A stretch of DNA of 64,000 nucleotides from Sulfurospirillum cavolei (GTDB lineage Bacteria > Campylobacterota > Campylobacteria > Campylobacterales > Sulfurospirillaceae): positions 62,001 to 126,000 of the forward strand of contig NZ_AP014724.1 of NCBI RefSeq assembly GCF_001548055.1, written 5' to 3'. Within the stretch, counting starts at the first letter, position 1; every line of letters starts with the position of its first letter. Shown here piece by piece: positions 2,290 through 19,753 of this stretch. The translations under genes were made by a program, and so were the position numbers. The notes under the pieces were generated by a model, which saw nothing but the letters and a program-made list of their open reading frames with translations, was not told the DNA's origin and did no database searches.

Positions 2290-3554
2290 TAAAGCGTTCT
2301 TGGATCGGTAATTTTTCCCATAACGGCACTGGCGGCCGCTACGGCGGAGTTGGCAAGGTAAATCTCGCTGGTGCGCGCTCCCATGCGTCCTACGAAGTTA
2401 CGATTGGTCGTTGCGACGCAACGTTCGCCTTCGCCTAAGATACCCATGTATCCGCCCAAACAAGCGCCACACGTTGGGTTACTAAACACCGCGCCCGCTT
2501 CGACGAAAATATCCACCAAACCTTCTTTTTGGGCTTGCAAAGAGATCTTTTGCGTTGCCGGCGTGATGATAAGACGTGTTTTTCGAGCAACTTTACGACC
2601 TTTTAAGATGCTTGCCGCGATGCGTAAGTCTTCCAATCGACCGTTGGTACAACTGCCGATAAAAACTTGATCGATCGCTAGATCGTCTTTGACCGCTTCG
2701 TTAATGGACTTGCCGTTAGAAGGTAAAAACGGATAGGCAATGACCGGATCAAGGTTCGCGACATCGATATGAAGGACGTGAACATACGTCGCATCGTCGT
2801 CGGAATAGAAAAATTTCGGCTCACGCGTAAGTTTTTTATCGCTTAAAAAGGCTTTGGTCGTTTCATCGACGGCAACGATACCGCTTTTGGCTCCCGCTTC
2901 AATTGCCATATTGCACAATGAAAAACGATCGTCCATGCTAAGGTATGCAACGGTATCGCCCGTAAATTCGAGCGTGCGGTACAAGGCACCGTCGACGCCG
3001 AGTCGGCGGATGACTTCCAAGATGAGGTCTTTGCCGTAGACGTGGCGTTTGGGTTTGCCGCTAAAGACGACCTTGATGGATTCGGGAACTTTAAACCAAT
3101 TTTCGCCCGTAATCATCGCAAACGCGAGGTCGGTTGAGCCCATACCCGTCGCAAACGCGCCTAACGCGCCGTGCGTACAGGTGTGTGAGTCTGCGCCGAT
3201 AATGACGTCGCCCGGAACGACCAGCCCTTTTTCGGGAAGTAGTGCATGTTCGATGCCCATGTCTTTTTCATCAAAGTAGTGTTTGAGATCGTGTTTGTAG
3301 GCAAAATCACGGCTGATTTTGGCTTGGTTGGCACTGGCAATATCTTTGGCGGGAATATAGTGATCCATAACGATACTAAACCCGTCCGGATTGGCAAGTT
3401 TGGTCGCGCCGCTCTCTTCAAACGCTTTAATGGAAATGGGCGTCGTGATGTCGTTGCCTATGACCATATCGATCTTGCATTTGATAATTTCTCCGGCATA
3501 TACCGCGTGTCCGACGTGTTCGCTGAAAATTTTTTCGGTGATGGTTTGTCCCAT
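2289..3554 (-). CDS. leuC: 3-isopropylmalate dehydratase large subunit (LeuC/homoaconitase family)
   Basis: An aconitase-family large subunit that isomerises 2- and 3-isopropylmalate in leucine biosynthesis, with a [4Fe-4S] cluster. The 421-aa length fits the short LeuC type. Cluster cysteines are visible at 302 (IGSCTNGR), 362 and 365 (NPTCGACLGG). GADSHTCTHGALG lies near residue 120. A separate small subunit (LeuD) is needed for activity and is not adjacent. Homoaconitase-type specificity cannot be excluded from the sequence alone. It is the first gene of a leftward operon with mobA. The 5' flank contains a TTACATGTAA palindrome just upstream of the start. Confidence 0.92.
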   Translation of the reverse strand: MGQTITEKIFSEHVGHAVYAGEIIKCKIDMVIGNDITTPISIKAFEESGATKLANPDGFSIVMDHYIPAKDIASANQAKISRDFAYKHDLKHYFDEKDMGIEHALLPEKGLVVPGDVIIGADSHTCTHGALGAFATGMGSTDLAFAMITGENWFKVPESIKVVFSGKPKRHVYGKDLILEVIRRLGVDGALYRTLEFTGDTVAYLSMDDRFSLCNMAIEAGAKSGIVAVDETTKAFLSDKKLTREPKFFYSDDDATYVHVLHIDVANLDPVIAYPFLPSNGKSINEAVKDDLAIDQVFIGSCTNGRLEDLRIAASILKGRKVARKTRLIITPATQKISLQAQKEGLVDIFVEAGAVFSNPTCGACLGGYMGILGEGERCVATTNRNFVGRMGARTSEIYLANSAVAAASAVMGKITDPRTL

Positions 3555-14707: not shown

Positions 14708-15243
14708 GATTTTTTTGGATCATCGCTTGCGTGGTTTTCTTTGCCGGATGCAGCGCGAAAGTCGAGGGCTTACATGTAGAGCCGCAAAACGTGGCACAAT
14801 TAACGTCGGACTTACAAGCGTTGGGTGATAACGTCGAGTATAGCGAAGCGCGTCTTTTTGCTTATGAAGCGTTGTCGTATCCGCAAACTTTGGCGGAGCG
14901 TTACGGCTTAGTCTATCCTCCTACACTTCACAATCTTTTAATCAATACGGGACTGAAAGAGCGTGGACTTTGCTATCAATGGAGCGAAGATATGATGGCG
15001 CATCTGAAAGGCTTGCACCTTCAAAGTTTCGATTTACGTTGGGGTGTTGCGAATAAAGGCGAGTTAAACGAACATAATTCGGTGGTTGTCGTAGCCAAAG
15101 GCGGCACGTTTCAAACGGGTATTTTAATCGACCCTTGGCGACATTCGGGCGTGTTGTATTGGGCGAAAGTCTCGGACGATCCGGAATACCGATGGATTGA
15201 AAATCTCTCTCGTAGCAAATATTTCGGTACGGTTACGCAGTAA
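14704..15243 (+). CDS. Conserved lipoprotein of unknown function
   Basis: About 179 aa. The ATG at 14704 overlaps the preceding stop (ATGA) and begins a lipoprotein signal MRFFWIIACVVFFAGC, with a lipobox FAGC and Cys16. The mature part has no motif I recognise; it is mixed alpha/beta with many aromatic residues (GLCYQWSED, LRWGVANKGE, LIDPWRHSG). A longer frame starting at 14638 only extends into the phosphoesterase. It ends 11 bp inside the convergent methyltransferase gene. Confidence 0.8.
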   Translation: MRFFWIIACVVFFAGCSAKVEGLHVEPQNVAQLTSDLQALGDNVEYSEARLFAYEALSYPQTLAERYGLVYPPTLHNLLINTGLKERGLCYQWSEDMMAHLKGLHLQSFDLRWGVANKGELNEHNSVVVVAKGGTFQTGILIDPWRHSGVLYWAKVSDDPEYRWIENLSRSKYFGTVTQ

Positions 15244-15844
15244 GGTTTTTTTTCAGAATAATACGAATCACGCTGGCACGTCCGACATGTTGCGTGCCTT
15301 CGTTGAGCATAACGATCTCTTGAGAGAGCTTGAGCACTTTGCACGGCAAGCGTTTAATCCAAGCGATAATCGCATTAATATCGTACAGTAACAGTGCGTT
15401 TTTCGGGCCCCCGCTGTTGAAGTGAATTTGACTTTCGCTGAAAAGTTCGGCAATAAAAATTCCCTCCGGAGCCAATGCGGCAACGGCTTTTTCAAAAAGC
15501 ATCATCTGCTCGTTTTTTGCCAAATCCAAATAGGTGCAAACGACCGCATCGTAGATGGGCTCTGGCTGCCAATATTCTAAAAGGGTATGACGTGTTTTGA
15601 TCGCGACATAGTGCTCTTTGGCGCGTTTTCGCAGTTTGGCAAGCGCGACGTCGGAAGCGTCAAGAGCTTCGACGTTTAAACCCAAATCGGCAAGGTAGAC
15701 CGCATTGCGACCTTCGCCTTCTCCTAAACAGATGCACCGTTTAGCGTGCACTAAGAGGTCGACATGTTCTTTGATAAAAGCATTGGGCGTTTCACCGTAG
15801 ATCATTTGGGGTGTTTGAAATTTTTCATTCCAAAATGCTTGCAT
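15233..15844 (-). CDS. Class I SAM-dependent methyltransferase (TehB/UbiE-like)
   Basis: A 203-aa single-domain methyltransferase. Motif I is CICLGEGEGRNAVYLAD (residues 37-53), followed by the acidic strand end VEALDAS and motif IV YDAVVCTYLDL. It has no evident target domain, as in small-molecule methyltransferases such as thiopurine or tellurite-type enzymes. Its 5' flank is the tandem structured repeat region at 15948-16232, whose terminators point toward this gene, so it may be expressed through or controlled by them. Confidence 0.85.
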   Translation of the reverse strand: MQAFWNEKFQTPQMIYGETPNAFIKEHVDLLVHAKRCICLGEGEGRNAVYLADLGLNVEALDASDVALAKLRKRAKEHYVAIKTRHTLLEYWQPEPIYDAVVCTYLDLAKNEQMMLFEKAVAALAPEGIFIAELFSESQIHFNSGGPKNALLLYDINAIIAWIKRLPCKVLKLSQEIVMLNEGTQHVGRASVIRIILKKNLTA

Positions 15845-15947
15845 CGACTTCCTTTTGTGACGTTAAAATTATTGTAACACAATTTAAATCAATGCAATCC
15901 TTTTTGAAGTACGTTATACTCAACTTCTCACAAAATGAGTTTTACAG

Positions 15948-15970
15948 AAAAAAAAGCACCGAAGGTGCGC
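15948..15970 (-). terminator. Terminator of repeat unit 1
   Basis: On the minus strand GCACC-TTC-GGTGC is followed by 8 T (15955-15948). This is the strongest of the three copies and lies about 100 bp before the methyltransferase start. Confidence 0.7.
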
Positions 15971-16041
15971 GGGCACTCCGTCTTGGAGAACCCAGCGTTA
16001 GCATAGCTTTTAGAGCTTAGCTCTAAAGGCGTGTTAAAGAT

Positions 16042-16062
16042 AAAAAAGCACCGAAGGGTGCG
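16042..16062 (-). terminator. Terminator of repeat unit 2
   Basis: The same hairpin on the minus strand (GCACC-CTTC-GGTGC, the loop one base longer) with 6 T at 16047-16042. Confidence 0.65.
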
Positions 16063-16135
16063 CGGGCACTCTGCCGAAGAGAACTCAGCGTTAGCGTAGC
16101 TTTTAGAGCTTAGCTTTAAAAGCGTGTTAAAGATC

Positions 16136-16155
16136 AAAAAGTACCGAAGGGTGCG
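16136..16155 (-). terminator. Terminator of repeat unit 3
   Basis: The same hairpin on the minus strand with GGTAC instead of GGTGC, which changes one G-C pair to a weaker C-A mismatch or wobble position, and 5 T at 16140-16136. It is the weakest copy and would be transcribed first. Confidence 0.55.
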
Positions 16156-16248
16156 CTGGCACTCTGCGTGAGAGAACCCAGTGTTAACGCAGTCTTTGGA
16201 GCTTTGCTCTAAAGGCGTGTCAAAGATAAAAACACCAAAGGAGTCACC

Positions 16249-16848
16249 ATGAAATACCCTCTTTTTTTCGAAGCGATCGAGGGCATTTGCCTTTACGATG
16301 CCCTCTCCGAAGCGTTAGGAACGTTTGAAGACGGTATCGTTTCGTTCACGTATCTAGACGTCGTTAAAAATGCGGGACACAGTTGTCCGACGATCGCCGG
16401 TGCGTATCTTAGCGTGCGTGAAGGGCTGAAGGCGTTGTACGAAGGAACAATGCCCGAGAGAGGCAATATCGCCGTTTTTTTTCGCGACGCTCAAGAACAC
16501 GGTACGACGGGCGTGGTCGCCAACGTTTTTTCGCTGATAAGCGGTGCAACCGATACGTGGGGATTTAAGGGCATCGGGACGCACTTTTCACGCACGAATC
16601 GCCTCTTTTTTCAAGCCAATATCGCGACGCCGATCCAAATCGAACGGCTCGATACGCATCAAAGCGTAGGTGTTACGTACGATCCTTCCTGCATTCAGGG
16701 CGATTTGCGTTTGCCGCCGCTTATGAACAAACTTGCGCAAGAGAGCTTGTCGTTTGAAGAAAAAACACTGTTTCAGACACTCTGGCAAGAAAGAGTTCGA
16801 AAAATTTTAGAAAATTTTGATAAAGTAATAACGCTAAACCTAGATTAA
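16249..16848 (+). CDS. FmdE-like domain protein, function unknown
   Basis: A 199-aa soluble protein. The segment NAGHSCPTIAGAYLSVREGLKALY (residues 42-65) and the following DAQEHGTTGVVANVFSLISGAT resemble the FmdE domain (named from formylmethanofuran dehydrogenase subunit E), where the GHxCP motif binds metal. Proteins of this type in non-methanogens have no settled function. AAAGGAG precedes ATG 16249. It is followed after 2-17 bp by the sensor gene. The family link is a judgement from the motif. Confidence 0.6.
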   Translation: MKYPLFFEAIEGICLYDALSEALGTFEDGIVSFTYLDVVKNAGHSCPTIAGAYLSVREGLKALYEGTMPERGNIAVFFRDAQEHGTTGVVANVFSLISGATDTWGFKGIGTHFSRTNRLFFQANIATPIQIERLDTHQSVGVTYDPSCIQGDLRLPPLMNKLAQESLSFEEKTLFQTLWQERVRKILENFDKVITLNLD

Positions 16849-16850
16849 CA

Positions 16851-17462
16851 TTGTCGGAGAAGAGGTTGCTAAACCTTAGGAAACAAAATATTACGAAATG
16901 GATTGTTTTTTTACCCGCTTCCGCCATTTTCTTGACGTTCTTAATGATCGTAACGATCGTGGTTTCGACCGAACGTACCGAATATAAAAAAGCGTTGGAA
17001 GCGGCTCGAATCGATTATGTGAAACGCTCGAAACTGCAAGCCAAAGAGCGTATCGATAAAATCGTCGAGTACGTCAATGAAAACGAGAAAATTTTGATGA
17101 GCGAAGTGCAAGAAGATGTGAAAAATCTTGTGAACCTCGCCTATCAAATTAGCGAAGATACCTACCGAGAAAACACCCGCCTTCCTCGAGACGAGATTCT
17201 CGAAAAGATCAAAACCAAGCTCCGAAACACGCGTTTTTTCAATGACCTAAGCGGCTATTACGTCATCTTTGGTCTGGACGGTACCTGTGAAATGAACGGG
17301 ATGGACCGTAGTTTGGAGGGAAAAAACTTTATCGATTTGCAAGACTCAAGCGGTCGCTACATTATGCGTGAAGGGTTGGCGCGCCTGAAAAAAGAGGAGG
17401 CGTTTGCAACGACGTACGAGTGGAAAAACTCGACGGACAAAGCACCTCGAAAAAAAAAATAG
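16851..17462 (+). CDS. N-terminal part of Cache-PAS-GGDEF-EAL sensor (frame-interrupted)
   Basis: It encodes a short cytoplasmic N-terminus, a membrane segment (around residues 19-41), then a periplasmic Cache-type sensor start with a long helix and DLSGYYVIFGLDGT. The frame ends at a TAG directly after a run of ten A (17450-17459). The rest of the same protein continues in the +2 frame. One extra A would join them as APRKKKIGYIRSY. The start is a TTG, either at 16851 or at 16866, which has GGAG upstream. This is either a phase-variable or slippage-dependent gene, a true frameshift, or a sequencing error at the homopolymer. Confidence 0.7.
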   Translation: MSEKRLLNLRKQNITKWIVFLPASAIFLTFLMIVTIVVSTERTEYKKALEAARIDYVKRSKLQAKERIDKIVEYVNENEKILMSEVQEDVKNLVNLAYQISEDTYRENTRLPRDEILEKIKTKLRNTRFFNDLSGYYVIFGLDGTCEMNGMDRSLEGKNFIDLQDSSGRYIMREGLARLKKEEAFATTYEWKNSTDKAPRKKK

Positions 17463-19753
17463 GCTATATTCGCAGTTACAAGCCTTTAAACATTTACATC
17501 GCCAGCGGAAGGTATGAAGACGAAGTTCGCGAGCGTATCAAAAAAGAGACGCAAAAATTTCTTTTAAGTACGCGTTACGGCGAATACGGCTATATTTTTG
17601 CCTACGACTATTACGGCAATACGATTTCGCACGGCGATCACGCTTTGATAGGGCAAAATCGACTGAACGTCACGACCAATAACCAGTACATTATCCGCGA
17701 CATCGTGGAAGGCGGAAAGCGCAACCTTGAAGGGTTTTTTATGACTTACGAGGCTTCGTACCACCCTGATAACCAAGACAAACGTAAAATCTCTTTCGTG
17801 CGCTCCATTCCTCAGTTTGAATGGGTTGTGGGTACGGGCGTTTATCTGATGGAAGAGAACAATGCGCTCGTGCAGCAAGAAGAAGCGTTAAAGACGAAAA
17901 TGCAATCGACGCTGGTTAACATGTTAGCGGTTTCTATCATCATTATGCTCTTGGTAATGGGCGTAATGTTTTTTATTTCGACCAAACTGCGTTCGGTTTT
18001 GGCGCGCTACGAAAACCATCTCTTGCTCAATAATAAGCAAATCAAAGAGCAAAAACAGGTTTTTGAAACGCTCTACCAAAAATCGGCGGACGGTATTTGG
18101 CTGCTCAAAGAGGGGATTTTCGTCGATTGTAACGAAGCGATCGTGAAGATGTTTAAAGCCAAAAACAAAGACGTGCTCGTGAACGTGACCTTAGCCGATC
18201 TCTCTCCTAAAGTTCAACCCGACGAGCAAAGTTCGTACGAAAAAGCGTTGTGGATGAACGAGTTGGCATTAAAAAACGGTACGCATAAATTTGAGTGGCA
18301 AGTACGCGATTGTGAAGGAAAACTTTTTTGGATCAGCGTTATGATGACGACGATTCATATGGATAAAGGCATCATTCAGCACTGTTCGGTTCGTGATATT
18401 ACGATTCGAAAAGAGCTTGAAGAGGAGAATAAAAAACAAAAAAACCTTTTAATGCACCAAGTCGAACACGATACGCTCACGGGACTGCCCAATCGTAACT
18501 TATTGCAAGATCGTTTGACGCAAGCGATTAAAAAAGCGAGTCGCGACAACAAAGTCTTGGGCGTGATGTTCGTGGACATCGATAAATTTAAAAATATTAA
18601 CGACTCTTTGGGGCACGACGCCGGCGATATGCTTTTGAAGATTATAGCGGCAAGAATGCGTCAGAACGTTCGCGACACCGATACCGTCGCACGCTTGAGC
18701 GGAGATGAGTTTATCGTACTTTTAGACGGTTGTAAGGACGTTAGCGATATTTTTGTCGCTATCAAAAAACTCGTTTATTCGTTCCAAGAACCTTTTATTT
18801 TCGGAAACGAAAGTTTTCAGATCACGACCAGTATCGGCGTCAGCGTCTATCCGCACGACGGCGAAGCGGCAAGCAAGCTTTTAAAAAATGCCGATATTGC
18901 GATGTACAAGGCCAAATCAAAAGGGCGTAACCGTTACGTCTTTTTCGATCAAGAGATGAACCAAGAGACCAACGAGCATTTGGAAATCGAAAAAAACTTG
19001 CGCAAAGCACTTGAACGCGAAGAATTCGTCATATATTACCAACCGCAGATCAACTTGCAAACGGAACGTATCGTCGGACTGGAAGCTTTGATTCGCTGGA
19101 ATCATCCGACGCGCGGGCTAACGACACCGAATTATTTTATTCACGTCGCCGAAGAGAGCGAACTGATCGTCGAAATCGGCAATTGGGTCATCATCGAAGT
19201 CATGAAACAGATGAAATCGTGGTACGATCAAGGATTAAATCCGGGCAAAACGGCGATCAACATTGCCGGAAAACAACTCGAATCAAGCGAGCTGATTAGC
19301 TTTTTAATTCAAAGTCTGCGTCAAAGCGGCTGTCGCCCCGAATGGCTCGAAATGGAGATCGTCGAGCGTTTTATTATGAAAGATACGATCAAGTCGATTG
19401 CTTTATTGAAACGCTTTCGCGAATTGGGGCTTGATATCTCGATCGACGATTTCGGTACGGGGCACTCCTCTTTGGCGTATCTGAAACAATTGCCGATTAC
19501 CAAGCTGAAAATCGATCAAAGTTTCGTACAAAGCCTTGAAGAGAGCAAAGAGGATCGCGCGATCGCCCGAACGATTATCGAGCTCGGACGCGGTTTGGGG
19601 CTCAAAGTCCTTGCCGAAGGCGTCGAGACGAAAGAGCAAAAAGAGTTTATCTACGCAAGCGGTTGCGAATTGATGCAAGGGTATCTTTTTAGTCGTCCCG
19701 TATGTGCGGAGGAGATTGAAACCATGCTCAAAAATCAAGGGCGTATGTTATAA
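17420..19753 (+). CDS. C-terminal part of Cache-PAS-GGDEF-EAL c-di-GMP enzyme (frame-interrupted)
   Basis: Beyond the A-tract it continues the periplasmic Cache domain (GYIFAYDYYGNTISH, WVVGTGVYL). A second membrane segment covers about residues 165-187 of this frame, followed by a PAS domain (YQKSADGIWLLKEG), a GGDEF domain with SGDEF and DTLTGLPNR, and an EAL domain with intact EALIRW, EMEIVE, DDFGTGHSSL and AEGVET. Both output domains therefore look able to bind or turn over c-di-GMP, with phosphodiesterase activity the more secure. The nominal ATG at 17420 lies inside the upstream part and is probably not a real start. Without joining, the signalling half would lack its first membrane anchor and half the sensor. 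Confidence 0.8.
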   Translation: MEKLDGQSTSKKKIGYIRSYKPLNIYIASGRYEDEVRERIKKETQKFLLSTRYGEYGYIFAYDYYGNTISHGDHALIGQNRLNVTTNNQYIIRDIVEGGKRNLEGFFMTYEASYHPDNQDKRKISFVRSIPQFEWVVGTGVYLMEENNALVQQEEALKTKMQSTLVNMLAVSIIIMLLVMGVMFFISTKLRSVLARYENHLLLNNKQIKEQKQVFETLYQKSADGIWLLKEGIFVDCNEAIVKMFKAKNKDVLVNVTLADLSPKVQPDEQSSYEKALWMNELALKNGTHKFEWQVRDCEGKLFWISVMMTTIHMDKGIIQHCSVRDITIRKELEEENKKQKNLLMHQVEHDTLTGLPNRNLLQDRLTQAIKKASRDNKVLGVMFVDIDKFKNINDSLGHDAGDMLLKIIAARMRQNVRDTDTVARLSGDEFIVLLDGCKDVSDIFVAIKKLVYSFQEPFIFGNESFQITTSIGVSVYPHDGEAASKLLKNADIAMYKAKSKGRNRYVFFDQEMNQETNEHLEIEKNLRKALEREEFVIYYQPQINLQTERIVGLEALIRWNHPTRGLTTPNYFIHVAEESELIVEIGNWVIIEVMKQMKSWYDQGLNPGKTAINIAGKQLESSELISFLIQSLRQSGCRPEWLEMEIVERFIMKDTIKSIALLKRFRELGLDISIDDFGTGHSSLAYLKQLPITKLKIDQSFVQSLEESKEDRAIARTIIELGRGLGLKVLAEGVETKEQKEFIYASGCELMQGYLFSRPVCAEEIETMLKNQGRML
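17450..17459 (+). other. Ten-A homopolymer joining two frames of the sensor gene
   Basis: Ten consecutive A. The upstream frame reads CGA-AAA-AAA-AAA-TAG, while eleven A would read on into the downstream frame. Such tracts are known sites of replication slippage (phase variation) and of RNA polymerase slippage. Confidence 0.8.

Follow-up and report, generated by a model that had tools for sequence, protein, structure and literature searches.

The 64,000-nucleotide window of the Sulfurospirillum cavolei genome analysed here holds a triplet of structured repeats in the gap between two divergent genes, a methyltransferase gene and an FmdE-like gene, and the locus raises the question of what these repeats are, which strand carries their function, and which of the two genes they serve. 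The array spans 15949-16227 (plus strand) and consists of three direct repeats, each 93 bp long and in register with the next, comprising unit 1 (15949-16041), unit 2 (16042-16134), and unit 3 (16135-16227), with identities to unit 1 of 83% and 75% for the other two. Tandem Repeats Finder reported just two arrays in the window and placed this one at 15942-16232 (score 407; 3.1 copies of period 93). An initial annotation had described three tandem units with covarying stems and favoured an RNA function, and both proposals held: the helix that reads CTCC/GGAG in unit 1 reads CTCT/AGAG in units 2 and 3, a compensatory change, and appears as UUGC/GCAA and UUUC/GAAA elsewhere among 83 copies from the genus, part of the strong covariation described below.

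The same annotation had taken the minus strand to be the RNA strand, and this was not upheld. Plus-strand folding compared with dinucleotide shuffles gave z-scores of -5.3, -3.8, and -3.9 for units 1, 2, and 3, respectively, whereas minus-strand folding was weaker (-4.0, -2.0, and -0.3). The difference stems from the wobble pairs, which are G-U on the plus strand and A-C on the minus strand (e.g. GTACC/GGTGC in unit 3; TTTGGAGC/GCTCTAAAG), and the plus strand is therefore the one on which folding has been kept.

Each unit contains three hairpins, located at 15956-15968 (H1), 15976-15988 (H2), and 16006-16030 (H3) in unit 1, at 16048-16061, 16069-16081, and 16099-16123 in unit 2, and at 16141-16154 (with one G-U pair), 16162-16174, and 16192-16216 in unit 3, all on the plus strand. 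A pseudoknot joins the strand at 15972-15974 with loop 15980-15982 in unit 1 and the strand at 16065-16067 with loop 16073-16075 in unit 2; in unit 3 the corresponding strand is weak and the loop is GCGTG. Immediately to the left lies a degenerate palindrome (15923-15949, plus strand; ACTTCTCACAAAATGAGTTTTACAGAA) that resembles the TAGACTTCTTGCAAAAC..TTTTGCAAGAAG of full-length copies and by this resemblance is the apparent remnant of the element's left inverted-repeat end. It is the only end kept in the window array, the right end being absent.

The core conserved across the order is one small RNA of about 87 nt, composed of H1, an H-type pseudoknot, the near-invariant AGYGUYARCGYAG, and H3; its full consensus is H1, GRGC, H2 with loop GCYGA, AACNYAGYGUYARCGYAG, H3, and CGU. 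The pseudoknot pairs R-G-C, directly 5' of H2, with G-C-Y of the H2 loop. In the genus alignment, standard pairs fill 97.5% of pair cells and double changes occur at 18 of 25 pairs, values reached by no shuffle. An order-wide alignment of 110 copies, which was aligned to the covariance model and thus leans towards it, has 97.1% of pair cells paired and 824 double-change cells against 259 in shuffles, a combination of pairing and double changes matched by 0 of 500 shuffles; slid controls on the same alignment were less than 57% paired. The pseudoknot is not in the model, and in the same alignment its variable pair is A-U in 52 copies, G-C in 51, G-U in 3, and another combination in 2. A nested GRG:CYC outer helix of H2 proposed by RNAalifold was rejected, its middle pair being unpaired in 39 of 110 copies, and the pseudoknot took its place. 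Covariation is present in every helix, both in the genus and across the order, and the three repeats almost certainly belong to a real class of structured RNA.

Several variants of the core were observed. H3 appears to be inverted in place (AACGTAG..CTACGTT) at three loci (L070; L099, 2041-2127; L123, 1424-1468), as if the hairpin had been flipped in the DNA, and in a small number of copies from across the order additional stems are inserted into H3 or the region of the H2 loop while the remaining core is kept (L331, L332, L342, L343, L353, L358). A sibling RNA type has the same 3' domain (AACGTAG-H3-CGT) and a different 5' domain (CTGCCTCG-AAAG-AGGCAAGCTTTAGTGCC); it is found at L072, L088, L103, and L128, in the S. 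cavolei genome itself (L025, near 1750-1850), and at L403, L406, L413, L416, L422, and L425.

The repeats are part of a large dispersed family. In the 2,698,323-base S. cavolei genome, blastn found 26 places, and a covariance model (R1) built from 83 non-redundant genus copies found 47 units in 36 loci at E <= 0.001, with 1-4 units per locus. All 24 Sulfurospirillum genomes searched contain the family (5-74 copies each), other genera of the same taxonomic family contain 0-4 copies, and within a Campylobacterales sample matches were obtained in 92 of 299 genomes and 23 of 81 genera, including one 1.8-Mb genome with 68 copies (G195). Among the matches listed for the 397 Campylobacterota genomes searched, none lies outside the Campylobacterales. 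The covariance search proposed in the initial annotation was thus carried out, and copies in other genera keep the stems; its suggestion of a repeated mobile element is likewise supported, by the 47 copies in this genome and by insertions relative to array-free relatives. It had recognised no RNA family, in agreement with Rfam 15, which gave no family in the window at the gathering threshold, only chance-level matches in the array region at E <= 10, and no match on the element in eight diverse relatives. A sub-threshold match to SECIS_3 was recorded at a relative's locus (L193, 232-290; 33.3 bits against a cut-off of 63, E 0.0005). No description of the element was found in the literature searched, mostly the main texts of freely available papers. 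One study among these surveyed a single Arcobacter genome and consigned several unnamed motifs to its supplements (PMC6429828).

The array lies upstream of an FmdE-like gene (16249-16848, plus strand; 199 aa; weak Pfam FmdE match, E 0.013, below the cut-off) with orthologs in 23 of 24 genus genomes. A -10-like TATACT at 15915-15920 (plus strand) is the putative promoter of this gene and the array, and the gene's Shine-Dalgarno sequence, AAAGGAG (16237-16243, plus strand), begins 10 nt past the end of unit 3; AAGGAG is conserved in relatives, and each unit lies upstream of an A-rich spacer and Shine-Dalgarno sequence. In relatives, the aligned -10-like box (GTTACAATC, GTTAAAATC, GTTATAATA) keeps its position whether or not the array is present. 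Six relatives without it (G012, G014, G015, G019, G021, G022) have the -10-like box, a short spacer, and the Shine-Dalgarno sequence; an array in this leader is found only in S. cavolei (three units) and a sister genome, G025 (two units; protein 90% identical), and in both it sits between the corresponding box (TATACT in S. cavolei) and the Shine-Dalgarno sequence. From this arrangement, the window array is very probably transcribed within the 5'UTR of the FmdE-like gene. Downstream, a Cache-PAS-GGDEF-EAL gene seems to be split into two plus-strand frames (16851-17462 and 17420-19753) with a dCache_2 domain common to both and an adjoining run of ten A (17450-17459); a frameshift, homopolymer phase variation, or a sequencing error is possible.

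The other neighbour is the methyltransferase gene at 15233-15844, for which the initial annotation had considered the units as tandem attenuators or riboswitch-like leaders on the minus strand. The idea draws on terminator-like hairpins with T-runs on that strand, which had been reported in each unit and are present in unit 1 (15956-15968) and unit 2 (16048-16061), two sites against 0.6 expected in shuffles, with unit 3 failing. The weaker minus-strand folds and the A-C mismatches on that strand speak against it, as does a conserved minus-strand box at 15871-15894 (ATTGTAACACAATTTAAATCAATG), outside the array, which contains a -10-like TTACAAT (15871-15877) and is likely the methyltransferase promoter. 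Since this box stands between the methyltransferase gene and the array, on the gene's side, the array would lie outside that gene's leader, as far as starts predicted from sequence rather than mapped can tell; the gene and its box are also kept in relatives without any array. This reading is accordingly highly improbable for the array, but part of the proposal survives elsewhere: in G017, G018, G020, and, in degenerate form, G028, a single copy distinct from the array and oriented the other way forms the sense leader of the methyltransferase. With the array before the FmdE-like gene and these separate, opposite copies, this intergenic region has received at least two insertions, both of them sense leaders.

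The ends of the element bear on how it moves. Full-length single copies in the genus have a left palindrome starting TAGACTTCTTGCAAAAC and a right palindrome ending AAGAACTCTA or AAGAAGTCTA, with TA at both ends, a possible target duplication. The genome G017 contains an intact-length IS5-family element of about 909 bp (L246, L247) with ends TAGACTTCTTTCATAAC, two differences from TAGACTTCTTGCAAAAC, and with HTH_Tnp_4 and DDE_Tnp_4 domains in a transposase frame split in two. MITEs of 166 bp with the same TAGACTTCTTTCATAAC ends but without the RNA core occur in S. cavolei (L254, 343-508, corresponding to G000:C1:840542-840707) and in relatives. Judging from the similar ends, the IS5-family element may mobilise the RNA element. 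In G195 this core has ATGCCATTAAGTTAA and TTAACTTAATGGCAT at its boundaries, which are unrelated ends, and insertion sites differ between species. Mobilisation by a RAYT/Y1 transposase was rejected: the RAYT-like Y1 gene of S. cavolei (L132, 1108-1866, minus strand) is flanked by GGGGTCAGGGCTAAAC palindromes unrelated to the element, with no core nearby, and no Y1 match is listed in the copy-rich G195 and G221. Viral spread was also set aside, with one IMG/VR match, likewise just upstream of a start codon.

Orientation was counted from gene calls made by a simple script of our own. Tandem arrays in the genus precede a sense gene in 20 of 20 cases at a median of 26.5 nt from the start, a count that includes orthologous loci and so is not one of 20 independent events, and of the single copies lying between same-direction genes 62 are sense and 34 antisense. 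Within S. cavolei, 25 of 36 loci, including 7 of 7 arrays, precede a sense gene. The bias is weaker order-wide, with 45 sense and 28 antisense copies between same-direction genes, 21 convergent, and 6 divergent. Plus-strand pairing is kept in each setting, the G-U:A-C ratios being 82:5 for sense, 51:3 for antisense, and 22:1 for convergent copies. An independent array with the same placement as that of the window is found in G263 (L432, about 2790-3250), where five tandem copies spaced 90 bp apart, four of which are nearly identical, fill the nusG-rplK gap within a ribosomal-protein operon and end a short A-rich stretch before the rplK Shine-Dalgarno sequence. Diverged copies also occupy rpmJ leaders in families f4 (L288, L295) and f6 (L310).

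In another family, f17, copies precede dnaK, groEL, nifU, rpmA, and other genes and are followed by a module of two competing hairpins, in which the strand CCUUCAUUUU can pair either with an upstream AAUGRAGG or with AAAAUUAAGG, the Shine-Dalgarno sequence. The Shine-Dalgarno helix is 89% paired, the competing upstream stem has a median length of 8 bp and goes beyond shuffles in 19 of 33 cases, and at L431 all three strands have changed in concert. Some of these modules follow no recognisable core or the sibling RNA, which in f17 precedes the same Shine-Dalgarno module as the core does, and the module is therefore a partner and not part of the core. No switch module was seen in the window leader. 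Genes downstream of copies include MscS, an AIRS-domain (ThiL-like) protein, TGT, a histidine kinase, a tRNA U5-methyltransferase, an MnmA-type protein, and a periplasmic binding protein and, elsewhere, DnaK, GroEL, NifU, L36, L27, and L11. No common pathway was found among them, and a riboswitch for one pathway was ruled out on the lack of shared function.

Taken as a leader, the array would have arisen as follows. A pseudoknotted RNA of about 87 nt would spread as part of a small mobile element, which, in a recent ancestor of S. cavolei and G025, would have inserted immediately downstream of the -10-like box of the FmdE-like gene, its core then multiplying into the tandem triplet. The promoter of the FmdE-like gene would transcribe the array on the plus strand as 5'UTR, and the folded units upstream of the Shine-Dalgarno sequence would change the translation or stability of the downstream message, the effect, its direction, and its trigger all being postulated here; the f17 leaders, in which this core leads into a Shine-Dalgarno switch of two hairpins, offer an analogue from one other family. 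The array is thus read, with slightly better than even confidence, as an order-wide mobile pseudoknotted leader RNA most likely acting in cis on the FmdE-like message. Counting against this, about half of the order-wide classified copies are not sense leaders, and their plus-strand fold is kept all the same, which is what a selfish element would show. The missing common pathway among downstream genes and the window leader's lack of a switch module also weigh against it.

The strongest counter-reading is that the fold serves the element itself, an RNA or single-strand DNA structure needed for its own copying and not for host genes, with leader copies surviving in sense because the reverse orientation would put a terminator-like hairpin and T-run into the message. 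The minus-strand terminator-like sites and the plus-strand pairing of antisense and convergent copies fit this account, as do insertions that differ among species, lineage-specific amplification such as that in G195, and ends that vary between lineages. Selfish DNA, however, has no need to confine its tandem arrays in the genus to sense leaders or to conserve a module that hides the Shine-Dalgarno sequence beside the core in f17; plain IS5-type movement requires only ends and no internal RNA fold, and the antisense copies could simply be young. A selfish element is considered a real but minority possibility. Compact autonomous folds in repeated units would also suit a set of three separate small RNAs that act in trans from the array locus, but a simple scan of both strands found nothing promoter-like within the units, the units contain no plus-strand T-run terminator, and the close, fixed spacing to start codons suggests a role in cis, making this unlikely. 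Dispersed palindromic repeats often act as DNA, for example as a recombination hotspot or protein binding site; that the array does so without RNA function is very unlikely given the order-wide compensatory change in all helices, including the pseudoknot, and the strand-specific excess of G-U over A-C pairs.

More tentatively, the family may be an undescribed, order-wide class of cis-regulatory RNA answering a global growth or stress signal, spread on different transposon ends and placed before ribosomal-protein, chaperone, Fe-S, amino-acid, and accessory genes, which would rewire genes wherever it inserts and set dose through the number of tandem copies. That an RNA with a pseudoknot, near-textbook covariation, and as many as about 70 copies in one genome is missing from Rfam 15 and from the papers searched represents an RNA annotation gap for a whole order. 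If the leader reading is true, a mobile element delivers a folded regulatory RNA into 5'UTRs, and tandem duplication can adjust how many copies are present; if the selfish reading is true, strong selection acts at the RNA level on a repeat carried by DNA, and a new mobility mechanism is called for.

Among known systems, REP/RAYT repeats share the dispersed hairpins and a GTAG foot 5' of H3, but here the palindromes beside the genome's sole Y1 transposase are different ones, and no Y1 matches are listed for genomes rich in the element. Riboswitches resemble the element in its compact pseudoknotted core upstream of a Shine-Dalgarno sequence and in the competing hairpins of f17, one of which hides that sequence; the element differs in not forming one regulon, in its many antisense copies, and in a window leader without the switch module. 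Full-length genus singles, with similar ends (TAGACTTCTTGCAAAAC) flanking at TA, are like IS5-family MITEs, but the ordinary 166-bp MITEs are without the RNA core, and the core occurs elsewhere on unrelated ends (G195). The closest parallel is the BOX element of Streptococcus pneumoniae, a small dispersed composite repeat (boxA-boxBn-boxC) with end modules bearing inverted repeats like those of IS elements, an inner module whose tandem number varies, predicted RNA folds, and effects on downstream genes that are reported to differ with orientation (PMC3049150). Singles with both palindromic ends and arrays of 1-4 cores give the present element the same composite architecture; the likeness is of architecture only, in a different phylum, and no sequence relation is claimed. 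The inner module here is a pseudoknotted RNA that covaries strongly and extends across the order, and in arrays the right end is lost and the copies point towards start codons. On the best reading, the nearest known kind is therefore a BOX-type repeat, but one whose inner module is a covarying, pseudoknotted RNA conserved across the order.
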